From the NCBI GenBank assembly GCA_947593655.1, contig CANQDS010000001.1:67081-131080 (forward strand): DNA of 64,000 bases, in the 5' to 3' direction. Source of the stretch: an uncultured Lachnospiraceae bacterium (GTDB lineage: Bacteria; Bacillota; Clostridia; Lachnospirales; Lachnospiraceae). Shown in pieces: positions 32,579 through 49,994 of this stretch. A program made the position numbers and the translations under genes. The notes under the pieces are model-generated. The model had not been told where the DNA came from and made no database searches. It saw only the letters and a program-made list of their open reading frames with translations. Position 1 is the stretch's first letter. Each line of letters opens with the position of its first letter.

Positions 32579-33193
32579 TTACGTTCCCAATTCAATCACT
32601 CTTCCTCCGCCCTGTTTATATTTTTCATCATGCGTAACTAAGATTACCGTCTTTCCCTTCCGGTTCTGTTCCCATAAAATCGACATGATCCTTTCTCCAT
32701 TTTTTCGGTCGAGGGATCCGGTCGGTTCATCGCAGAGGATCAGATCGCATTTTTTAAACATCAGCCGCGCCAATGCAATTCTCTGCTGCTCGCCTCCGGA
32801 AAGCATATATATTTTTTTATCCTTGGCATCCGCTAATCCCACCTGCTCTAAAGCCTCATCCAAACCGATCCCCGAACGGTTCGCCTTCCGAATGATCTCA
32901 AGATTCTGCTTGACGGTTTTATCCTCGATCAATGCAAAGTTCTGAAACAGAAATCCGGCTTTTTCCGCCAGATATTTCTGCCTGTTCTTTTTTCTTCCCA
33001 CATCGATTCCATCCACCAGAATCTGTCCCGAATCCAGCGGCTCCAAGGAACCGATCATATTCAACAGCGTCGTTTTTCCACATCCGCTCACTCCTGAAAA
33101 AACCACAAACTCTCCCGTATCTATTTTTATATTTAGATCATGGAACAGGACTTTGTTTCCAAAGGCTTTATCCAGATTTTTAATTTCTACCAT
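32579..33193 (-). CDS. ABC transporter ATP-binding protein (bacteriocin export/immunity type, DUF1430-associated)
   Basis: Walker A GVSGCGKTTLLN, LSGGEQQRIALARLM, CDEPTGSLD. Confidence 0.92.
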   Translation of the reverse strand: MVEIKNLDKAFGNKVLFHDLNIKIDTGEFVVFSGVSGCGKTTLLNMIGSLEPLDSGQILVDGIDVGRKKNRQKYLAEKAGFLFQNFALIEDKTVKQNLEIIRKANRSGIGLDEALEQVGLADAKDKKIYMLSGGEQQRIALARLMFKKCDLILCDEPTGSLDRKNGERIMSILWEQNRKGKTVILVTHDEKYKQGGGRVIELGT

Positions 33194-33211: not shown

Positions 33212-34730
33212 TTATAAAACGCTTCCCTTTAGTGCTTTTTGTATGCTCGTTTTTTCCAGGATCTTAATATTACGCAGCGTAGCGGTCACGTCCACTGCAC
33301 CAATCGCCGCATAAGCGGTTAATAAATATCCTATGGATTCCATGTGCAGAACCGCTGCAGCGATCATTGCTGCCGCCGCGCTTACCGCCAATATGATCAC
33401 AGTGAGCAAAAACATTTTCCGGTATTTTAGAAAAACGGAATAACCAGACACCGTTTTTACTGCCAGTTCCATAGAGTGAAGCATTCCTTCATATTTGAGC
33501 AGCGTTTTAATAATGATAAATTCCATAACCAGAAGAATGGCAAATGCGGTCAGTCCAAACAGAATCGTCCGCTGGTAATGTTTTAAATAATAATGGTAAT
33601 TATCATACACATTGGTAAGAAATGATGCGTTTTTTTCAATGGGATTGCTGTTTATGTACGCACCCCATTCCGCTTCTGTCATGTTGATCATACACGCCTG
33701 CACAAAATAAATCCCATTGTATAAATTCAGTTCATCCTGCATATCCAAAATAATCAAAGGATTCTGATAAATCCGGCTGATAATCCCATTCTGGTTTCTG
33801 ATACCGATCACAGAACAGGAATCCTGATAGACCAGCGCCTCATATTTTGTATTTTCTCCCAGATACATTTCTGCAAGCATCTCTAAATCCTGCAGTCCTG
33901 CGTCCGCCATTTTTTCCGGCACAAGAAAATAGATTTTGTCCTCAAATTCCGTACTCCGGATATCACTGATATTTTCCTTTAAATAATGAACGGTGTTTTT
34001 ATTATAAAACAGACAGGGTTTTCCGCTGAACATTCCCTCATCCATATAAACATTCAGAAACGCCTGTCCTTCTTAAAAGTATATCGCACAAAATTCTTTT
34101 CAACACAATTGCTTTCAAACTCTCTCCGTAAATAAACCGCACCGCCGTTTCTTTTTTTAACAGCATCGTTTCATACAGCGTCATCAACAGCAGAAACAGG
34201 ATCCCTACGCCCCATATACAGACAGCGTTTCGAGCGGAATGCTGATAAATATACCCTTCTTTGGGGAAATTTCCGTCATAGATATTTATCATTTCACTTT
34301 TAAAGGCTCTTGCATCTTCCATTTTTCCTATAAAATAATAGCTTGAAATCTCATTCACATCCGGTATCTGCGAAAAATCTTTAAATTCCACTTCTATTTG
34401 TCCCAGAAAAATACTTTTATATTTCCCTTTGCGGATGGAAGAGTTCTTCTGTAAGATTTCTTCTGTTTTATCCATTCCATAAATAGAAACGATTTCTGAA
34501 TGAATGGTTTCCAAATTACGGTTGACCGCAAACACAAGACAATGATGAGCTTTTGCCTTTTCTTCTATATCCGTAAGCATCTTCTGTTGAGATACGTCCT
34601 TTGGCAGATACATTGTTGTCACAATATACTCCGTTTCAAAACTGTCAATGTTCCAAACAAACATTTCTCCGATAAAGGTCAGGATGGCTGCAATTAAAAA
34701 AATGCTTGTAAGATACCTTATTTTTCTCAT
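33212..34730 (-). pseudogene. DUF1430-type bacteriocin-associated integral membrane protein, split into two frames
   Basis: N-half ORF 34038..34730 (TM + extracellular region) and C-half ORF 33212..34045 (extracellular region + FtsX-like TMs) overlap in different frames; N-half ends in RRTGVSECLYG*. Confidence 0.7.
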
Positions 34731-34855: not shown

Positions 34856-35554
34856 TCACATCGAAGCAAACTTTTTCTTTGCTGCAATATATTGCTTTTT
34901 TGTTTCTACATACTTCCTAACACTGATATATGCCTTTTTATCTGCTGGAAAGTATGCAAACTCCTTATCCAGATGCTCTACGGAATTTAAATTGATCAGA
35001 AAAGATTTATGACATCTGAAAAAACCGTACTCTTCCAGCTTCTTTTCTAAATCATTGATTTTTTCGCTGCATTCATAGCATCTGTCAATTGTGTGTATGA
35101 TACAACCTCTGCCTTTCGTTTCTATATAAAGAATATCCTTCGCCAAAATACGTTTTGTATCATTTCCGTTTGTACCGACCAGCATAAACTGATTCTTTCT
35201 GTTGATCTCCCTTACTCTTTGAAAAGCCTCTTCTAATTCCTCCTGCATTTTTGTTTTATCCACATACCGGAATGCATCCACCAGATATCCTTTTCTTGCA
35301 TAATCCAGATGCGTGGTCAAAATTATAATGATACTTTCTGAATGTTCTTCTTTATATTTAACGATTGTTTCAAAACCATCCATTTCAGGCATATCAATGT
35401 CCATTAATACCATATGATACTCTTTATTTTTTTGGAGAAACTCAACGCCAGAATGAAAAACATCAATTTCATCCGATTGTTTCACATAATCCTGCACTGC
35501 TTCTAACTCCAGATCTCTCCATTTCTGTTCATCGTCAACAATAGCTATTTTCAT
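34856..35554 (-). CDS. LytTR-type response regulator (AgrA/ComE-like)
   Basis: MKIAIVDDEQKWRDLELEAVQDY; C-term LytTR DILYIETKGRGCIIHTIDRCYECSEKINDLEKKLEEYGFFRCHKSFLINL. Confidence 0.93.
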   Translation of the reverse strand: MKIAIVDDEQKWRDLELEAVQDYVKQSDEIDVFHSGVEFLQKNKEYHMVLMDIDMPEMDGFETIVKYKEEHSESIIIILTTHLDYARKGYLVDAFRYVDKTKMQEELEEAFQRVREINRKNQFMLVGTNGNDTKRILAKDILYIETKGRGCIIHTIDRCYECSEKINDLEKKLEEYGFFRCHKSFLINLNSVEHLDKEFAYFPADKKAYISVRKYVETKKQYIAAKKKFASM

Positions 35555-36854
35555 CCCGCATTATCCTCTTTTTCATTTTTTAATGTGATGGAAACAATAA
35601 ATTTATCATCCGCAATTTCAATATCCATGAGGCCCTTGCAATCCCTGATACTGTCTTCCACATTTTTCATTCCCCACCCATGATACTCTTTTTCCCCTTT
35701 CGTCGTTTGTAATCGGTTCTTATCCAATTTATCATTATAATAGTAATTACCTATTTCTACGATAATAACATCTTTCGCATACCGGCATATTACCCATATC
35801 TCTCTTTTCTCAGTCTTATCCGCCGCTTCTATCGCATTATTCAGCAGATTAAAAAAATGGTACATAAATTGTAAGCGCTGATATTACACTTTGAAGGGAA
35901 ATGACCTGTTACCTTCATTTTTATATGTTTTCTTTCCGCGTCGGCATATGATTGGTTCAGCACAGCATCAACGATATCATTTCCTACGCAAATACTGTTT
36001 CCCAGATCATCTACTTTTCCGATGATATCCTGAAAATAGTCTTCAAACTCCTGATTTTTTCCCTCTTTCCTCAAGGTATTTAAAAAATAAAGATGGCTTC
36101 TGATATCATGCCTGAATTTTTTTGTTTCTATTTCCCGCTCTTTCAAATATTCATAATATGCGGCTTGTTTTTCAAGATATTGCTTAATGATCAGTTCCTT
36201 TTCCTTATACATATTTCTTGAAACCAGCAGTAATATTACGGATATCATCTCTATAAATAATCCCAATGTTACCAAAATACAGATAATAATATACGCAAAT
36301 TTATTGCTAAATGCTTCTTCTTCTAAAGTTACGTTTGCCATCAGCGCCAATATATAAAAATTAACAAATAAATTCCCTGTAAAGAAAACCAAATATCTAG
36401 TGCTGATATTTCTGATTCCTTCATCTGTTATTTTATTTAGCAGTCTACTGGCAACGCCGATAACGCCAAGTGAGAATAATGCCCCCAAAACATTTTCCAG
36501 CGAATCGTTGGAGAAATCAACAACCTCCCCTATCGTATCCAGCAACAGCATTGCGATCAACTCAATGAACTCCACAATAATAGATACCCATATGGCGCAT
36601 ATGGCGATCTTTTTATTATTTTCTATATAGCATATTTTGAAAACAATTACCAAACACGCCAGATAGACAAACAGTGCGAAGATCCTATTCCCTGTCTCAT
36701 GAATCATCAGTGAGGCAAAAGCCGAGAGAAACAGAACTTTTACATATCTGTAGTTATCCTCTGTTTTTTCCCTTAATCGCAGATAATTTTTGCATATCAG
36801 CAGTATTCCCGCAATATGTAAAACATCAGCAATAATACTATACAGTATACTCAT
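35551..36854 (-). pseudogene. AgrC-like GHKL sensor histidine kinase, split by -1 frameshift
   Basis: ORFs 35841..36854 (...NISAYNLCTIFLIC*) and 35551..35865 (...FFNLLNNAIEAADKTEK) join as one kinase across a T7 run. Confidence 0.8.
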
Positions 36855-36877: not shown

Positions 36878-36973
36878 TTATTTCTTATTCCATTTTTTCC
36901 AAAAAGCATAAACCAACGTTGCAACAGAGCCGCATATAGCTCCTATGACCAACGGTAAAAATATTCCATCCAT
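36878..36973 (-). CDS. 31-aa single-TM peptide, copy 1
   Basis: GGAGG RBS; MDGIFLPLVIGAICGSVATLVYAFWKKWNKK*; paralog at 41009..41104. Confidence 0.65.
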   Translation of the reverse strand: MDGIFLPLVIGAICGSVATLVYAFWKKWNKK

Positions 36974-37455: not shown

Positions 37456-37518
37456 CTTTTTTCTCCTTTTTCATAAATTTTTTCTTTATATTCTGATCCG
37501 AGTTTTTATATAAATGAT

Positions 37519-38190
37519 TTATTTTATTAAATTTCCGGTAATTTCTTTTAATCGAACGAAATCTTCTTCAAATACCCTGTCCTTTCCAACCTTAAGCTGC
37601 CCTTTATACAGTTCAATTTCGCAGACGGTTCCTTTCGTTGTAATCTTTTCCTTCACTATGCGTATCTCGGTTATCTGCGAATAATCTACCACGTATCTAT
37701 CAGAAAGAAAAAATGAATCGCAAAATCCAGATGTTACCTCATTATACGGTTCAAAACATGCCAAAAATGATATCAGTACGAGCCATATCCAATAATTATC
37801 ATATATATAATTCTCGCTGATGTAACTCAAGTCATGAACACATATATATACCAAACTTATAACTGCCAGTCCTATATTTACAACTAGGAGCAATTTGATT
37901 ACCTTATGATAATAAGCAGTATAAGCACCCATGCTATACCCATTTTTGAAATACCTATTTTTTATGGTAAACCTAAGTATAAATTCCACCAGTGCTACAA
38001 TATAAAAGAGCGTCATATATATGAATACAGCTATATAGTTGTTTGCCATCTTATGATAGTAAACTGCCAACATTACCAAATTCATTTCGATATTGATAAA
38101 CGCTGGGAACCATCCTTTAGGATATATTCTTTTTGCGTTAATATCTTTATCATTGTATTTGGATCGTTTGAATAATTTATCATTATACAT
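37519..38190 (-). CDS. Membrane protein with C-terminal PH-like/basic domain, paralog 1
   Basis: MYNDKLFKRSKYNDKDINAKRIYPKGWFP...FFLSDRYVVDYSQITEIRIVKEKITTKGTVCEIELYKG; close paralog at 41170..41868. Confidence 0.75.
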   Translation of the reverse strand: MYNDKLFKRSKYNDKDINAKRIYPKGWFPAFINIEMNLVMLAVYYHKMANNYIAVFIYMTLFYIVALVEFILRFTIKNRYFKNGYSMGAYTAYYHKVIKLLLVVNIGLAVISLVYICVHDLSYISENYIYDNYWIWLVLISFLACFEPYNEVTSGFCDSFFLSDRYVVDYSQITEIRIVKEKITTKGTVCEIELYKGQLKVGKDRVFEEDFVRLKEITGNLIK

Positions 38191-38202
38191 ACAGTTACTC
38201 CT

Positions 38203-38403
38203 CTACTCAATAATCAAATCCTTTGGTTTATCTGCTTTTAATTCAATGTATCCACACTCAACACATACAAGACAACTAACCGTACTTTGATGTAAAACTT
38301 CAAATACACCTTTCTTTTTGTTTGTCAGATACACCCCCATTCCAAACACATCCCCACTTATCTTGGCATTTATCATTTTGCCTTTACATTTTATACACTC
38401 CAT
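38203..38403 (-). CDS. Small zinc-ribbon-like protein
   Basis: MECIKCKGKMINAKI...STVSCLVCVECGYIELKADKPKDL. Confidence 0.65.
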   Translation of the reverse strand: MECIKCKGKMINAKISGDVFGMGVYLTNKKKGVFEVLHQSTVSCLVCVECGYIELKADKPKDLIIE

Positions 38404-39586
38404 TTATATTCCTTCTTTCGTTTCCTGTAAACAGTTTTTGCTGAATGATCCGACGTTCCACCTCTCTAACCGGTTCAAACAATCCTAATAAAGTAAACGA
38501 ACTGCTTGGATTCATATTTTTGTTTAACCAATCCGCATCGTCGCAGCCATATAGCAGATGTTTTGTCAACTTGGAGTAGTACTCCTTCGATGGCATACCC
38601 TTCAACAATTTCTCTGACGACCTGTTCATCACTTCCTGTAAAACACGCTTTTCAACCTGTCCGTCCTTTAACAGCCTGTATACCATATGAAAATAGAATA
38701 TATCCCGTTCTTCGCTTTGTGGATATTCTGATAGTATTTTATCCTCCTCAAACATGGATCTGAGAATTCCATTTATTTCATCATCCAACTCAAAAACACC
38801 TAGATACTCCAACTGAATTACCCAGTCGAGCATCCCGAGATTGGTTGAATCTTTCGGTTCAGCATTAGTCTTTTTTGCATATTTAAATATCTCATTCACA
38901 AGCCAGCCACTATCCATTATTTTTTGCTTCCAGTCATTTGCAAACATCAAATACTGTGCAAGTTGAAGGAGCGTCCGCTTATCATTTTCCTTATACAATT
39001 TGTACGCAGGAAAATCACCATATAAATTTTCTGTTTTTAGGAATGATGAAACGAACATGGTAAGTCCAATAAAAATACAAAACACTAAAAATACACTTAT
39101 GTATATATACTTTGCAGATAGTCCCGAAAATAACAACACAGCGTATGCCACCATTGCTGCTATCGCCTCCACAAATGATATGATCGGTGCAAACAGCAAT
39201 GCCCTGCTGTATATTTTTCGAATTTTTTCAAATTGTCCCTCACTGTTTATTGCCGGAAGATCCGGTATTACGATTCCGCCTGCAAGTGTAATTTTGTTTG
39301 GATAAAATAGAAATTTCCATCTTTTATCATCCTTATAAAAGCAAAATAAAAATACGGCTATAAACCTAAGCGGAATTTTATTGATCCAAAAATAAAATGC
39401 ATGAGACAATTCATGAAGCGTAGTGGAAAATAACATGGACAATGCAAACAATCCGATTATTGCTGCATAATTAATTCTAAGTTCAAACAGCTTATCCATC
39501 TCAAACTCAGTCACAAATGTTCCGATTCCGATTCCGAATAAAATGCATATTCCCAAAACGAAAATATACCGGCAAAACTTCTTCAT
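38384..39586 (-). CDS. M50-like site-2-type membrane metalloprotease homolog
   Basis: LHELSHAFYFWINKIPLRFIAVFLFCF HExxH in TM context; AGGIVIPDLPAIN. Confidence 0.7.
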   Translation of the reverse strand: MKKFCRYIFVLGICILFGIGIGTFVTEFEMDKLFELRINYAAIIGLFALSMLFSTTLHELSHAFYFWINKIPLRFIAVFLFCFYKDDKRWKFLFYPNKITLAGGIVIPDLPAINSEGQFEKIRKIYSRALLFAPIISFVEAIAAMVAYAVLLFSGLSAKYIYISVFLVFCIFIGLTMFVSSFLKTENLYGDFPAYKLYKENDKRTLLQLAQYLMFANDWKQKIMDSGWLVNEIFKYAKKTNAEPKDSTNLGMLDWVIQLEYLGVFELDDEINGILRSMFEEDKILSEYPQSEERDIFYFHMVYRLLKDGQVEKRVLQEVMNRSSEKLLKGMPSKEYYSKLTKHLLYGCDDADWLNKNMNPSSSFTLLGLFEPVREVERRIIQQKLFTGNERRNINGVYKM

Positions 39587-39618
39587 GCTATATCTCCTCC
39601 CATTATATTGTCTCCTCG

Positions 39619-39686
39619 TATTATAAATTTTGTCTTTGTACTCTGATTCGAGTTTTTATATAAATCAGTTCAATTTCGCAGACTGT
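39619..39686. pseudogene. Remnant of a third copy of the PH-like membrane-protein gene 3' end and its spacer
   Basis: 46 bp matching 41120-41166 (one mismatch) abutting 22 bp identical to 41262-41283, intervening sequence deleted. Confidence 0.65.
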
Positions 39687-39699
39687 TTATTACTTTGTT

Positions 39700-40881
39700 T
39701 TAACATAATGGATTAACAATTAAAAAATTATTAATAATCTTTTCGTCATCATAGTAATTGGGTAATTTGGATAATAACGAATCCATCGAGGATAATTCTA
39801 TCTTTTCGTTCAATTCACATACGTTAGTAGTCCTTTTATAAACCGCCATTTCCGTTTGCTTAAATCTATAAATTCCTGATTTTGTTTTTGTTATTCTTTC
39901 ACTATACTTTTCCCAAAGCATCAACGCTTCCTCAGAATCCCCTATAAGATTAAGATAAATAATTGCGTGACAACAAAAACAACTATATATCTCAAATGGT
40001 ATTCTTTCTTGTATGTTATAGATGATGCTATTAAGGTTTTCTGGATCAGCCAAAACGGATGAATAGCATTTAGGTTTCATAATCATTTCATATAAAAATG
40101 CATCAGCCAGCAAAAAGTTCATTGTGGGTGCATTTATGTCCAAAGTTAGTGTTTCAACGCATTGTCTCATCCTCTCGATTAAAAAGCTCTGTGTTGTTCT
40201 TACATTCTCTTTCAATATATTATCTTGTAAGAGAAAATAATTATATATTTGAACCAACGAATACACTTCATCTGTTTTCAACTTTTTAGCACCAATATAG
40301 TCTCCTACAATACTCCCCAGATTCAAAATGGATGTTATATTTATATAAACAGACCAAAACACCATAGCAATGCAAAATATAAAATAATAGGAGCAAACAT
40401 CATATTTTATATGCCTGATAGTAAAACTTACTAATAGCAAAAAAAGTATTCCTAATAATGCCGAAAATATTGAAGCGCTAATGACAGATATACTAATTTT
40501 TTCCCGAAGTGTATTATATTCTTTTTCATCCAAAACAGACGAAATTTGTGGAATAACTATTCCACCAAATCCAAGTTGTAGATTTAATGCAACCGATATT
40601 TTATATCGGCGAGCTTCCTTTATCAAACAAACGGGAAATAAGTATATTAAACGGATGGCTATGCCCTGTAAGCGATATGCAACCGCATGGGTAATCTCAT
40701 GCAAACACATTGAAAGCCATAATGCAACTCCAAAAACAATTATTCCTTTTACTATACCAATTGATAAATATTCTGGATGAAGTTCTTGAATTTTAGCAAA
40801 TCCTACTCCTATTATAATTCCCATAACAGAAATACAAAGCACAATTCCATAAAAAATTATATACAATCTTATTTTTCTCAC
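39700..40881 (-). CDS. M50-like site-2-type membrane metalloprotease homolog, second copy
   Basis: LHEITHAVAYRLQGIAIRLIYLFPVCL HExxH; FGGIVIPQISSVLDEKEYNTLREKI. Confidence 0.7.
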   Translation of the reverse strand: MRKIRLYIIFYGIVLCISVMGIIIGVGFAKIQELHPEYLSIGIVKGIIVFGVALWLSMCLHEITHAVAYRLQGIAIRLIYLFPVCLIKEARRYKISVALNLQLGFGGIVIPQISSVLDEKEYNTLREKISISVISASIFSALLGILFLLLVSFTIRHIKYDVCSYYFIFCIAMVFWSVYINITSILNLGSIVGDYIGAKKLKTDEVYSLVQIYNYFLLQDNILKENVRTTQSFLIERMRQCVETLTLDINAPTMNFLLADAFLYEMIMKPKCYSSVLADPENLNSIIYNIQERIPFEIYSCFCCHAIIYLNLIGDSEEALMLWEKYSERITKTKSGIYRFKQTEMAVYKRTTNVCELNEKIELSSMDSLLSKLPNYYDDEKIINNFLIVNPLC

Positions 40882-40907
40882 AGCATCTTTCTCCGAAAAT
40901 AGTTACC

Positions 40908-41008
40908 GTACACCAAAAGCCGAGAAAAACAGAATTTTTACATATCTGCAGTTATCCTCTGTTTTTCCCTTAATCGCAGATGATTTTTGCATATCAGCAG
41001 ATATGGAG
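40908..41008 (-). pseudogene. Remnant of AgrC-like kinase 5' end (duplication of about 36716..36802)
   Basis: CCAAAAGCCGAGAAAAACAGAATTTTTACATATCTGCAGTTATCCTCTG... nearly matches the kinase gene. Confidence 0.8.
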
Positions 41009-41104
41009 TTATTTCTTATTCCATTTTTTCCAAAAAGCATAAACCAACGTTACAACAGAGCCGCATATAGCTCCTATGACCAACGGTAAAAATATTCCAT
41101 CCAT
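41009..41104 (-). CDS. 31-aa single-TM peptide, copy 2
   Basis: MDGIFLPLVIGAICGSVVTLVYAFWKKWNKK*; one substitution from copy 1. Confidence 0.65.
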   Translation of the reverse strand: MDGIFLPLVIGAICGSVVTLVYAFWKKWNKK

Positions 41105-41169
41105 TATATTTTCTCCTCGTATTATAAATTTTGTCTTTGTACTCTGATCCGAGTTTTTATATAAATGAT

Positions 41170-41868
41170 TTATTTTATTAAGTTTCCGGTAATTTCTTTT
41201 AATCGAATGAAATCTTCTTCAAATACCCTGTCCTTTCCAACCTTAAGCGGCCCTTTATACAGTTCAATTTCGCAGACTGTTCCTTTCGTTGTAATCCTTT
41301 CCTTTACTATGCGTATCTCGGTTATCTGCGAATAGTCCACCACGTATCTATCAGAAAGAAAAAATGAATCGAAAAAACCAGATGTCATATCATTAAACGG
41401 TTCAAAACAAATCAAAAAGAATATCAGTGCAAACCATCTCCAAGAATAATCATATACAGCATCCTTGCTTATGTGAGTCAAGTTATGAACAAATAAATTT
41501 ACAAAACTTGCAACTGCCATCCCTATATTTACAACTAGAAGCAATTTGATTACCTTATGATAATAAGGAGTATGAACACCCATGCTATACCCATTTTTGA
41601 GATACTTATCCTTTATGATATATCTAAGTGCAAATTTCCCTAGTGCTACAAGGTAAAAAAGCACCATACAGATTGATACAGTCATATAGTTGCTTTCTAT
41701 CTTATAATAGTAAATTATCAACATTGCCAAAAACATTTCAATAATAAAAACCAATAGAAACCATCCTTTAGGATATATATTTTTAATGTTAATATTTTCA
41801 GCATTGTATTTAGATCGTTTAAATTTATCATTTAATATATATTTCATTTTATATTCCTTCTTTCTCAC
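41170..41868 (-). CDS. Membrane protein with C-terminal PH-like domain, paralog 2
   Basis: C-term DRYVVDYSQITEIRIVKERITTKGTVCEIELYKGPLKVGKDRVFEEDFIRLKEITGNLIK nearly identical to paralog 1. Confidence 0.75.
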   Translation of the reverse strand: MRKKEYKMKYILNDKFKRSKYNAENINIKNIYPKGWFLLVFIIEMFLAMLIIYYYKIESNYMTVSICMVLFYLVALGKFALRYIIKDKYLKNGYSMGVHTPYYHKVIKLLLVVNIGMAVASFVNLFVHNLTHISKDAVYDYSWRWFALIFFLICFEPFNDMTSGFFDSFFLSDRYVVDYSQITEIRIVKERITTKGTVCEIELYKGPLKVGKDRVFEEDFIRLKEITGNLIK

Positions 41869-42069: not shown

Positions 42070-42102
42070 AAAAAAACTGCAATGAACTTCTATTCACTGC
42101 AG
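42070..42102 (-). terminator. Intrinsic terminator in regulatory cassette, copy 1
   Basis: CTGCAGTGAA-TAGAAG-TTCATTGCAG followed by T-run on minus strand. Confidence 0.8.
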
Positions 42103-42195
42103 CCGAACTATCCTAGCGGTTTTCGCATTCGCAAATTCCTGCCGTAGACTCCAAGCTTTGCGTCCTTATATTTCTATAAGTTTGCCAAGTATTAT
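42098..42195 (-). ncRNA. Cyclic di-GMP-I (GEMM) riboswitch-like aptamer, copy 1
   Basis: Minus strand GGCAAAC-TTATA-GAAA-TATAA-GGACGCAAAGC...AGTCTA...GCTAGGATAG; GNRA-capped P2 and ACGCAAAGC match the GEMM-I consensus from memory. Confidence 0.7.
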
Positions 42196-42208
42196 CTTAA
42201 CTATAAAA

Positions 42209-43197: not shown

Positions 43198-44481
43198 CTA
43201 TTCTTCCATATAAAGCATAATTTTTACGCAGAATTCCCGAGCATCGTATGTCAGTTCCATTTCCCCATTATACTGTTCCACCGCTGCATTCACATTTTTA
43301 AGACCAATTCCATGCAATAATGTATCTTCTTTTTTCGTCAACAATTCTCCCTCTCTCTGAAAAACAACCCCATTGTAACTGTTTCTGACAGTGATCCATA
43401 CCGCCCCCGCCTGATATTTTATCTTCAGATCAATATACTTGTCATCTTCAAGGCAATCTGCTGCTTCAATTGCATTATCAAGAAGATTTCCCATAATTGT
43501 TACGATATCATCACTTTTCACAGCAATTTCACTAGGCAGAAGAATATGGGAGCAAACCTTGATCCCCCGTTCATGTGCATCACTTAATTTATAATTGATA
43601 ATACTGTCAAATGCCACATTTCCCGTACTACTAAAAGTTTTGGTCTGCTGCACCCTGCGCGTCAGATTCTGAAGATAGTTTTTGGTTTCTATATTTTCCT
43701 CTCCGATCATTCCCTCCAGCACATACAGATGATTACTGATATCATGCCGGAACTTTCTCAGTTCTGTACTGCTTTTCTGCAGCAGCTGCGCCTGTTGGTA
43801 ATAATAATTCTTTTCCATCTCCATCCTGTCTGTCTGCAGTTTTTCCTTAAAAATTCCGGATATAGTGTCATAGAGATATATCATTAAAAACAACACCATA
43901 AACATACAGAAAACCGAAAGCATTTTAATCCTGCCCCCTAAATTTTTCTGCATAAATATATTCAATTCCATTGTAAAAATCAGTATCGTTAAAACGATCA
44001 TAGATACGCCGAACAACTTTGGCATTACAATCTCATCGTTGATATTTTTAAAAATACTAATCACTTCACAAATGAGCCAGGATATCAACTGCACACTGAT
44101 AAATACAAATGCATCGCCCTCATGCCTGCTATCCGTAAGATCGACACCGCTCAAACCAATCAACATAGCAACTACCGCTTCGGAAGCAAACATACACATA
44201 AATGTAAATGCTGTTGCAATTGCTCGATTGACCATGCGCTTTCCATAACACATGGTAATCAGGAACAACATTCCAATCGTTACCGCCACATTTATAATTT
44301 CATATGGAAGCCACGCATATTGCAGAATACCTACTATCAATTTTGCCAAATAGACCAAAGTGATTTTTTGCTTATTGATATTCCTTTTTCCCAAAAACAA
44401 CTTCATATATTTTGAAATAATATAAAGTTCAAAGAAAGCAGATGCCACATATGACACCATATATAATAGATTATCCATCAT
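43198..44481 (-). CDS. AgrC-like GHKL sensor histidine kinase (intact)
   Basis: LRKFRHDISNHLYVLEGMI; MGNLLDNAIEAADCLED; LLHGIGLKNVNAAVEQYNGEM. Confidence 0.92.
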   Translation of the reverse strand: MMDNLLYMVSYVASAFFELYIISKYMKLFLGKRNINKQKITLVYLAKLIVGILQYAWLPYEIINVAVTIGMLFLITMCYGKRMVNRAIATAFTFMCMFASEAVVAMLIGLSGVDLTDSRHEGDAFVFISVQLISWLICEVISIFKNINDEIVMPKLFGVSMIVLTILIFTMELNIFMQKNLGGRIKMLSVFCMFMVLFLMIYLYDTISGIFKEKLQTDRMEMEKNYYYQQAQLLQKSSTELRKFRHDISNHLYVLEGMIGEENIETKNYLQNLTRRVQQTKTFSSTGNVAFDSIINYKLSDAHERGIKVCSHILLPSEIAVKSDDIVTIMGNLLDNAIEAADCLEDDKYIDLKIKYQAGAVWITVRNSYNGVVFQREGELLTKKEDTLLHGIGLKNVNAAVEQYNGEMELTYDAREFCVKIMLYMEE

Positions 44482-45185
44482 TCTTCCCCTAATTTCATAT
44501 ACTGGCTTCGTATTTCCTTTCTTCTTGACTGGCTGATCGACAATTCCACTCCGTCTGTCATAACCAGATGTGTATAACCGATCTTCTTAATATATTGATA
44601 ATTTACCAGATATGACTTGTGGATAAATAGAAATCCGCGGTTCTTTACACTTTCATATATTTTTTCCAGAGATTCATAAAATTCCACTGTTTCATCCATT
44701 GTATGCATAATTACTTTTCTTCCGTCTCGTTGAAAATACATAATTTTATATACTTCAACTTTATAGTTCTCATAGCCTTTTTTATATTGAAATATATCCG
44801 TCTTTTGTCCGTAGATCTTCATGTAAACATCAATCACTTTTTCCGCTTCTTCCTTCCTCAGCGGCTTAATCAAAAAATTAATCGGACGAACATCAAACAA
44901 TTCCATTGCATACTCCTGCTTAGAAGAAATATATGCGATCTGCACAAGATCGTCCCTTTTGTTCTCACGAATATCTTTTCCGATTTCCACGCCGCTTTTT
45001 CCGGGCAGTTCAATATCCAAAAAGATCAAATCATATTTCTGATATTCCAGTTCCCTGCACAGACTTTCCCCTGAATAAAAAACATCAATATCATAGGACA
45101 CTTTTCTTTTCTTCAGCAAATTGCTCAATATCTTTTCCAATTGCGAACAAATTTCAGCTTCATCATCACATATTGCGATCTTCAT
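44478..45185 (-). CDS. LytTR-type response regulator
   Basis: MKIAICDDEAEICSQLEKIL; LytTR IMYFQRDGRKVIMHTMDETVEFYESLEKIYESVKNRGFLFIHKSYLVNYQYIKKI. Confidence 0.93.
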   Translation of the reverse strand: MKIAICDDEAEICSQLEKILSNLLKKRKVSYDIDVFYSGESLCRELEYQKYDLIFLDIELPGKSGVEIGKDIRENKRDDLVQIAYISSKQEYAMELFDVRPINFLIKPLRKEEAEKVIDVYMKIYGQKTDIFQYKKGYENYKVEVYKIMYFQRDGRKVIMHTMDETVEFYESLEKIYESVKNRGFLFIHKSYLVNYQYIKKIGYTHLVMTDGVELSISQSRRKEIRSQYMKLGEE

Positions 45186-45206
45186 TTTCACACCTTCTAC
45201 TGATAT

Positions 45207-45240
45207 AAAAAAGCTGCAATGAACTTCCATTCACTGCAGC
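45207..45240 (-). terminator. Intrinsic terminator in regulatory cassette, copy 2
   Basis: GCTGCAGTGAATGGAAGTTCATTGCAGC followed by TTTTTT on minus strand, just upstream of the LytTR regulator ORF. Confidence 0.85.
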
Positions 45241-45332
45241 CGAACTATCCTAGCGGTTTTCGCATTCGCAAATTCCTGCCGTAGACTCCAAGCTTTGCGC
45301 CCTTATATTTCTATAAGTTTGCCAGGTATTAT
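45236..45332 (-). ncRNA. Cyclic di-GMP-I (GEMM) riboswitch-like aptamer, copy 2
   Basis: Minus strand GGCAAAC-TTATA-GAAA-TATAA-GGGCGCAAAGC...AGTCTACGGC...GCTAGGATAG. Confidence 0.7.
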
Positions 45333-45345
45333 CTTAACTACGAAA

Positions 45346-47069: not shown

Positions 47070-47660
47070 CTAGCAGAGAGCCCTCGCTGACAACGGGATA
47101 TTCTCTGATGGTAAAAAGCTAGAGGCGTTCAGAAAGCCGACATCCTCATTATCCGCAGAGACGACCGGCGTTCTCACGTCAAAATTCTCCCCCTTCCAGA
47201 TGCCGAGACGTTTCATCAGGTGGACGATTCCGGCAAACAGCTGGTCTCCGTACACCTGCGTAATACGCATGCCAACGCCCATCTCGACCACCAGCGTCGG
47301 CGTGCCCGCCGCATTCAGGCTGTGCGCAAAAGTAGATTCCAACACGGTGCTGGCTCCGTGGATCCAGATAAAATCCACATTCGCTTCCTCAGCGTAGGGA
47401 ATGAGGCTGTCCTCGTGCAGTTCATTGATGCGGATCTGCGGCACTTCCGTCAGGAAAATATTGCTGGCGTGAATATCAAACACCAGATCCGATCCCGCCG
47501 CGTCCTTCACGATCTGCGCCGCCAGATACTCGTTCATGTCCCCCTCCGTATTCCCCGGAAAAATGCGGTTCATATCCAGATCGAAGGCCGGAATGCCCCT
47601 TGTGATGGAATCGATGCCGAAAGGGTTGAGCGCAGGATAGATATCTACCGTTCCTCTCTC
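47070..47660 (-). pseudogene. M14-like desuccinylase family protein, 5'-truncated
   Basis: SERGTVDIYPALNPFGIDSITRGIPAFDLDMNRIFPGNTEGDMNEYLAAQ in frame with ORF 47070..47573, but N-terminal zinc-motif region absent. Confidence 0.65.
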
Positions 47661-47985
47661 AGACGGATGCCCCGCCGTTTTCTGTTACCTCGACCAGAAT
47701 GCTCTGCCTCTGCGCCGCCTGCCCTGTGAAGACGCCCCTGTTGATCGAACAGTCCCGATAGTCCCTGCCATGGGATATTTTGATATGGGAATCCTCCACA
47801 GGCACATTATTGGTCGGATCAAAACCATGCCAACGCACTCCGTCATAAATTTCCACCCATGCATGGCTCTCTCCATCGCCCGTCAACATCCCCACCACAT
47901 ATCTCGAAGGAATCCTGTCCTCCCGGCACAGTGCAAGCAGGATATGCGAATAATCCTGACATACGCCTTGCGCATAAATGATTAT
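47659..47985 (-). pseudogene. Transglutaminase-like protein, 5'-truncated at the permease gene end
   Basis: YAQGVCQDYSHILLALCREDRIPSRYVVGMLTGDGESHAWVEIYDGVRWHGFDPTNN begins at its catalytic Cys; upstream codons belong to the permease in another frame. Confidence 0.75.
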
Positions 47986-49994
47986 GCCTCCCCTCCGCTG
48001 ACGATCTGATAATAAAAACGCGACGTAATATAATAGACAACAACATAGAACAGAATAAATACCATATAGCAGCACAGGAAACTCAAAACCAGCAGTTTCG
48101 TATCCGTGATCGCAAAAAGCACCAGCAGCTTCTGAATGATCGGAAACGCAAAAGCCAGATGGATTCCCGCTGCCAGCAGCGGCAGAAAAAATACCGTCAG
48201 CATCTGCGAATTGATGCTCTGGCGGATCTCCCGCTTCGTCATTCCGACCTTCTGCATGATGCCGAAGCGCGCCTGATCTTCATAGCCTTCGCTCAGCTGC
48301 TTGTAATACATGATCAGCACCGTCGCCACCAGAAATACCGCCCCTAAGAAAATTCCAAGGAAGAACAAACCGCCGTAAAAACCATAAACTTCCGAACGAT
48401 TGCCTTCCAGACTGTCCACATTGATATGCGAAGAAAATCCGCTGTCATCCGCGCAAAGCGCACCTTTCAGATTCCGCCAAACGGAAAGTTGCTTTTCCCC
48501 TGCGACATCCAGATCAAAACCGTAATAATACTCGGAATAAGCCAGCTGCTGCCCGGAAGCGGTCTTTTCCTTTTGCAGGACATCCGCTATATCGTCATAT
48601 TCCGGCGTAAACACATACACGGAATTTACCGCGCTTACCAGCGCCCCGCCGTCATTTTCAAAACTGTCCACCTGTTTCTTAACGTTCAGTTCCCCATAGA
48701 CATCGATATCCATCCGCTTGCGGTCAAAATTGCCGTGCAGTGCATAAACGATCACTTCTCCCGGCTGAAGCGTTTCCGTCTTTCCCATAATCCGGTTATA
48801 GTCCTCCAGCGGAATAAATTCCAGATACCACACATCATTATAAGAAAAAAATTCCACATTTTCCGGACTTGTGATCACCGTCTCTCCATCAAAATAGCCT
48901 GCCAGTCCCAGATCGGAAAATTCGATCGGATCCTGTTTTCCCACATGGCAGTTTTCCAGTACTTCGTCCGCTTTCTCTTTTAATGCGGCCTTCTGCGTCT
49001 CGTCCGGCGTCTGCATGGTGATCAGGATATCCCGCACATACCGGTTATGCAGGGAGTTCTCCGTTCCGACATATAACGTAACCGTAGACGTCAGCATGAC
49101 CAGAACCATCGTGGAAAGAATGCAGATCGACGCAAGCCCCGCGCCGTTGCGTTTCATCCGGTATGCCATAGAAGAAACGGAGACAAAGTGTCTTGTCTGG
49201 TAATAATAGTTCCGGTTTTTCTGGAGCAGACGGCAGATCACGACGGAACCGGAAATAAAAAGCAGATACGTCGCCGCGATGACCATAAGGACGGCGGCAA
49301 AAAACCACAGCAGCGCTTCAACCGGCTGTTCAATGGAAAGCGCAATCCCGTATGCACAGGCCAGGATTACGAGGCCGAGCAGCGCGGCCAGCCAGTTGCC
49401 TTTCGGCTTTTTCTCTCCGGAATTTTCGCTGCGCAGAAGCTCGATCGGTTTTGCAATGCGGATCTGCGCCATGCTGCTGACAAAGATCAGCCCGAAGATA
49501 ACCAGAAACCACTGCAGGGTAGAGCGCATGGCATCCCAAGAGACGAAAAAAGAAAACGCCGCTTTCTGCCCCATGATCCGGATCATGCAAAGTTCCGCGA
49601 GTTTGGAAAACAGCAATCCGCAGAGCAGTCCCCCGGCCAGCGCGACTGCGGCCGTGATCAGGCTCTCCCAGATCTGGATATGCACGAGGTTCCATTTTCC
49701 CATTCCGAGGATATTGTACAGGCCGTATTCTTTTTTTCTGCGGCGGATCAGAAACGAGTTTGTGTAAAAAAGAAAGACTGCTGCAAAAGCGCCCATCACC
49801 CCGCGCCCCATATCCAGCATCAGCCTCACCGGCTCTTCGCCCGGCAGTCCCGACAGCGCTTCTGTCCTGCTCAGATAATAGATCAGATAATACATCATGA
49901 CCATTCCGATGCAGGTCAAAAGATACGGAATGTACAGCTTACGGTTTTTATAGATCCCCATCCCCGCCAGTTTCGGATAAAATGCTGCCCTCAT
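47982..49994 (-). CDS. FtsX-like ABC permease (BceB-type)
   Basis: About 670 aa, FtsX-like TMs plus large extracellular domain; operon with ATPase and TCS. Confidence 0.9.
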   Translation of the reverse strand: MRAAFYPKLAGMGIYKNRKLYIPYLLTCIGMVMMYYLIYYLSRTEALSGLPGEEPVRLMLDMGRGVMGAFAAVFLFYTNSFLIRRRKKEYGLYNILGMGKWNLVHIQIWESLITAAVALAGGLLCGLLFSKLAELCMIRIMGQKAAFSFFVSWDAMRSTLQWFLVIFGLIFVSSMAQIRIAKPIELLRSENSGEKKPKGNWLAALLGLVILACAYGIALSIEQPVEALLWFFAAVLMVIAATYLLFISGSVVICRLLQKNRNYYYQTRHFVSVSSMAYRMKRNGAGLASICILSTMVLVMLTSTVTLYVGTENSLHNRYVRDILITMQTPDETQKAALKEKADEVLENCHVGKQDPIEFSDLGLAGYFDGETVITSPENVEFFSYNDVWYLEFIPLEDYNRIMGKTETLQPGEVIVYALHGNFDRKRMDIDVYGELNVKKQVDSFENDGGALVSAVNSVYVFTPEYDDIADVLQKEKTASGQQLAYSEYYYGFDLDVAGEKQLSVWRNLKGALCADDSGFSSHINVDSLEGNRSEVYGFYGGLFFLGIFLGAVFLVATVLIMYYKQLSEGYEDQARFGIMQKVGMTKREIRQSINSQMLTVFFLPLLAAGIHLAFAFPIIQKLLVLFAITDTKLLVLSFLCCYMVFILFYVVVYYITSRFYYQIVSGGEA

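Follow-up and report, generated by a model that had tools for sequence, protein, structure and literature searches.

A frame break at a T-run in an AgrC-like sensor kinase gene of an uncultured Lachnospiraceae bacterium probably reflects a recent one-base loss

GHKL kinases of the AgrC/ComD kind, which are paired with LytTR response regulators, are the closest described counterparts of the kinase gene analysed here. The gene spans 36854..35551 on the minus strand of the window, the 64,000-nucleotide stretch of DNA from an uncultured Lachnospiraceae bacterium that was analysed, and shares with those kinases a multi-spanning membrane N-terminal part, an FRHD H-box, an HATPase_c_5 domain (in this case in the −1 frame) and an adjacent LytTR partner (Table 1). 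These sequence features mark it as a membrane-bound sensor kinase of AgrC/ComD type. Unlike AgrC/ComD loci, this one has no agrB or agrD that was noticed beside the kinase, and no AgrB-like domain was found among the neighbouring ORFs scanned; a 31-aa peptide and an ABC transporter adjoin the gene, which is itself broken. The peptide, for which NCBIfam gave no match, could serve as a signal or be a small membrane peptide. The transporter invites comparison with bacteriocin ABC systems, which combine a TIGR01654 permease with a TIGR03608 ATPase: the window's ATPase is clearly of this type, with a TIGR03608 score of 225 bits that lies below the curated cut-off of 254.85, and the C-terminal part of the permease matches its family. 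Unlike TIGR01654 permeases, the window's permease is broken by an internal deletion of ~0.4 kb and a frame change; because its two parts align to separate stretches of the intact permease L090, about 146 residues appear to be gone. Relatives' permeases are mostly open frames of 629–665 aa. Kinase, regulator, permease and ATPase form a putative operon.

The kinase frame is broken at a T7 run. ORF1 reaches a stop three codons past the run, and its 337-aa product ends in ...SAYNLCTIFLIC*. The remainder of the gene is read in the −1 frame, where ORF2 carries the N-box NLLNNAIEA and the G-box HGWGMKN and matches HATPase_c_5 (PF14501) over profile positions 10–102 of 102 (E 3e-20), the first nine positions being absent. 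The minus-strand codons from AGC GCT to TGC TGA read exactly as the preliminary description had given them, and the zero-frame T_TTT_TTA heptamer was correctly identified. Its further statements, that an AgrC-like kinase is interrupted at the T-run and that the −1 frame restores the N-box, are supported; the kinase is of the GHKL type and has a LytTR partner.

Table 1. Features of the kinase locus (window coordinates).
Feature	Coordinates	Strand	Basis or remark
Kinase ORF1	35841..36854	-	337 aa; membrane sensor domain and H-box/DHp helix; aligned with intact kinases
Kinase ORF2, −1 frame, ATPase domain	35551..35865	-	PF14501; 104 aa from chance ATG
T7 run, frame change	35851..35857	-	One base short relative to the frame of intact orthologues
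Zero-frame T_TTT_TTA heptamer at break	35850..35856	-	Sequence reading
Second zero-frame T_TTT_TTA in kinase gene	36081..36087	-	Read through; conserved frame-0 sequence after it
Lone predicted downstream stem	35818..35849	-	RNA folding; begins right after heptamer, 0-nt spacer
LytTR response regulator, intact, 232 aa	34856..35554	-	PF04397, PF00072; overlaps kinase stop
Bacteriocin-associated ABC permease, N-terminal part	34038..34730	-	45% identical to intact L090 1–196; ends in frame change
Same permease, C-terminal part, other frame	33212..34045	-	35% identical to L090 343–619; TIGR01654 544–645/681
ABC ATPase, intact, L_ocin_972 (bacteriocin export/immunity) type	32579..33193	-	TIGR03608, PF00005
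31-aa membrane peptide ORF before kinase	36878..36973	-	Translation; repeat D4
Truncated second copy of kinase 5′ region	40914..41000	-	94% identical to kinase bases 52–139; repeats D7, D8

Codon-by-codon comparison with 31 homologues, for which the pre-break part served as the query, found every one of them (31/31) in a single frame through the site, with the consensus DLCTIFSNLLSNAIEA. A second scan with a homologue alignment gave 80 loci, 78 of which span the site, in a set that partly overlaps the 31. None of the 31 or the 78 homologues, among them the four closest orthologues, has the heptamer at the break position, and A/T runs there reach a length of at most six among the 78. Three loci are evident orthologues (L112, L115 and L116; 65% identity before the break and 79–80% after it), and their regulators are 73–77% identical to the intact regulator of the window, 77% being the best value; a fourth orthologue, L119, shows 51% identity before the break and 63% after it. 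All four encode intact kinases of 432–435 aa in one frame, and the first three read NLCTIFFNLLNN in frame at the site, which is the window's own motif. The break is therefore specific to the window sequence, since the orthologues and homologues compared are single-frame, and judged against these intact homologues it is a real feature of the deposited sequence. The orthologues were reached only by the scan with the narrower homologue alignment, the broader alignment being too divergent; scanning genome and viral contigs with single proteins turned up no relatives, and neither did plasmids or a DNA search of 145 relatives. Among the three orthologue loci, two have the kinase pair behind a relaxase-like gene and one has it close to transposase-like genes (names from translations); nearly identical copies occur in two different MAGs, and the kinase/regulator pair probably travels on mobile DNA. 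In a separate homologous kinase gene (L130, SVED01000083.1, 531–1855), the matches to the N- and C-terminal parts lie on opposite strands and the frame changes near residue 375; this contig has low coverage, and the arrangement could reflect an inversion or a misassembly.

The same comparison bears on the idea that ORF2 is started separately, by translational coupling at the ATG at 35865, to yield a free ATPase domain. The ORF1 stop follows this ATG after 24 nt, a spacing that counts in favour of coupling. A split kinase was nevertheless rejected and carries next to no probability: no ribosome-binding site precedes the ATG, which is a chance TT-ATG-T within conserved Leu-Cys codons, and none of the orthologues is split.

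The ATPase domain behind the break is still under purifying selection, with dN of about 0.13 and dS of at least 1.4 for the post-break part against the close orthologues. Tajima-type counts of unique changes in the C-terminal part, window versus L115 with two outgroups, are 4 v 7 and 7 v 8 and show no acceleration; in the N-terminal part the window exceeds L115 (48 v 22 and 56 v 33). Because the severed domain is well preserved and evolves no faster than in the orthologues, the lesion would be young. The break is thus recent, corrected or not real; an old pseudogene is ruled out by the undecayed C-terminal part.

We consider it probable that a recent one-base loss at the T-run inactivated the kinase gene. 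Loss of one base would bring the stop into frame three codons later, and the resulting 337-aa product would keep the membrane sensor and the phospho-acceptor helix without the ATP-binding domain. The roles of these domains in histidine kinases are known, and because the ATP-binding domain is missing the short product should be inactive, with no self-phosphorylation. The sequences themselves show the break, the unbroken frame of the orthologues, the preservation of the C-terminal part and the lesion in the permease; we infer a genuine base loss in cells and an inactive short product. The setting is a decaying, rearranged locus, with a permease that is missing about 0.4 kb and has changed frame and, not far off, a truncated kinase copy. 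Some cells could possibly possess a functional full-length kinase, since the response regulator and the ABC ATPase are intact and the C-terminal part is undecayed.

Several other rearrangements were observed around the kinase. The truncated kinase copy lies ~4 kb away, alongside duplicated neighbours, and is preceded by a near-identical 31-aa ORF at about 41009..41104 (-) (99% over 108 nt, D4), so that each copy of the duplicated membrane peptide, MDGIFLPLVIGAICGSVATLVYAFWKKWNKK, directly precedes a kinase gene copy. A membrane-protein gene is tandemly duplicated within 37473–41423; the copies (37519..38190 and 41170..41868) are 93% alike over 300 nt and flank two M50-like peptidase genes. Two c-di-GMP-I riboswitches (RF01051), 93% alike over 219 nt, lie at 42095–42196 (-; 61.6 bits), ahead of the gene at 41868..41170, and at 45232–45333 (-; 58.4 bits), directly upstream of an intact pair of LytTR regulator and AgrC-like kinase genes (45230..43198); a related copy is found in a same-genus genome (G029:C76, L185). 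A transglutaminase-like gene (48075..47659, -) and an AstE/AspA-like gene (47573..47070, -) lack their N-terminal parts and meet their neighbours at sharp junctions, which could be deletions or assembly joins.

The missing base could also be an artefact of sequencing or assembly, the kinase being intact in the cells and a single base absent from the consensus. This reading, which we hold to be unlikely but worth reckoning with, would account for the undecayed C-terminal part, and because the assembly is a draft (3.09 Mb, 186 contigs, 87% complete) faulty assembly could explain the permease deletion as well as the lost base. It is also consistent with several apparent deletion junctions on this contig and with a further frame break in the same genome, in a flagellin gene with a G7 run (L054:10576). 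Frame changes are nevertheless rare, this flagellin site being the single other candidate across about 114 kb of the genome's coding sequence covered by relatives' proteins, and A/T runs of eight occur at ordinary frequency (14 in 400 kb, versus 128 of length seven), which together make a systematic homopolymer error unlikely; the permease lesion, moreover, is a ~0.4 kb deletion and not a homopolymer slip. The window holds 32 homopolymer runs of length seven and none of eight, and an assembly that shortens all homopolymers to seven is ruled out by the 14 A/T runs of eight. A local error at the T-run is possible. As to G/C runs, nine of length 7–8 occur in the sampled loci of this genome and none in the reference stretches from three same-genus genomes; the flagellin-like gene (L054:10540–10640, contig 13; name from translation) appears to change frame at its G7 run.

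Reversible slipped-strand changes in tract length at the T-run could instead switch the kinase on and off. A homopolymer in a coding region with an undecayed C-terminal part behind it is what such phase variation would leave, and the agr regulators of Staphylococcus aureus do vary via homopolymer tracts (PMC7911514). We regard it as improbable here: T7 is short and common in this genome, with 128 A/T runs of this length in 400 kb, the tract is not conserved (at most six in the 78 homologues), and a single allele was seen in one assembly. Among the alternatives that the preliminary description had listed, a true null mutation is the best fit. T-tract variation, like an error in sequencing or assembly, is less probable.

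Its principal proposal, programmed −1 frameshifting at the heptamer, did not hold up. In this reading, ribosomes would shift frame (or transcription would slip) at U_UUU_UUA and so make both full-length and truncated kinase, consistent with a heptamer in the correct frame, an N-box restored in the −1 frame and purifying selection on the C-terminal part. The coincidence of heptamer and break is, however, not informative, because in-frame T_TTT_TTA is frequent in this genome: across the window, non-overlapping ORFs of 200 aa or more hold seven zero-frame examples, and 400 kb of the remaining genome hold 25. One of the seven lies earlier in the kinase gene and is read through in frame 0. Loss of one base would leave a zero-frame X_XXX_XXN at 26 of 85 A/T runs of seven and at three of eight runs of eight, or about one third. 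RNA folding of pseudoknot-free structures gave no support for a stimulatory downstream stem-loop around the heptamer; the lone predicted stem abuts the heptamer, and stretches containing it have z-scores against shuffles of −1.36, −0.24, −1.72 and +0.20. No Shine-Dalgarno-like element was found by inspection just upstream of the heptamer, and no Rfam frameshift element matched near the break. A systematic study in E. coli placed H_HH.U_UU.Y among the efficient bacterial motifs, whereas U_UU.U_UU.A belongs to a class that is efficient in eukaryotes and is not among the shifty motifs selected in E. coli (PMC4066793). Selection against A/T runs prone to transcription slippage is typically evident at nine (PMC1088944), and the run here is T7. 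With the site absent from every homologue compared, we consider recoding very improbable. There is a similarly slim chance that the T-run is very young and that slippage in translation or transcription still yields some full-length kinase, tuning the ratio of signal to kinase; if so, the loss of a base from this quorum-type sensor gene would be corrected in part.

However textbook-like, a slippery heptamer found at a frame break provides weak evidence by itself, and the orthologues settle the question. A genome-wide classification of frame changes requires a conserved site for programmed frameshifting and treats singletons as indel mutations or sequencing errors (PMC3711429). What the kinase gene shares with programmed −1 frameshift genes such as dnaX and the IS1/IS3 transposases is a zero-frame X_XXY_YYZ at the frame change; unlike in those genes, the kinase site is a singleton that is not conserved, lacks a supported stimulator and uses a motif that is weak in bacteria. 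The staphylococcal agr homopolymer variants (PMC7911514) are alike in that a sensor or regulator gene is knocked out by a change in tract length, but the window offers one allele, from a different bacterial family. The kinase gene agrees with a pseudogene created by a recent indel in its frame break confined to a single gene, its intact homologues and its lack of a conserved recoding signal, and if the base loss is real, it would be another case of sensor-kinase inactivation in a bacteriocin- or quorum-type locus, here in one gut species of the Lachnospiraceae.
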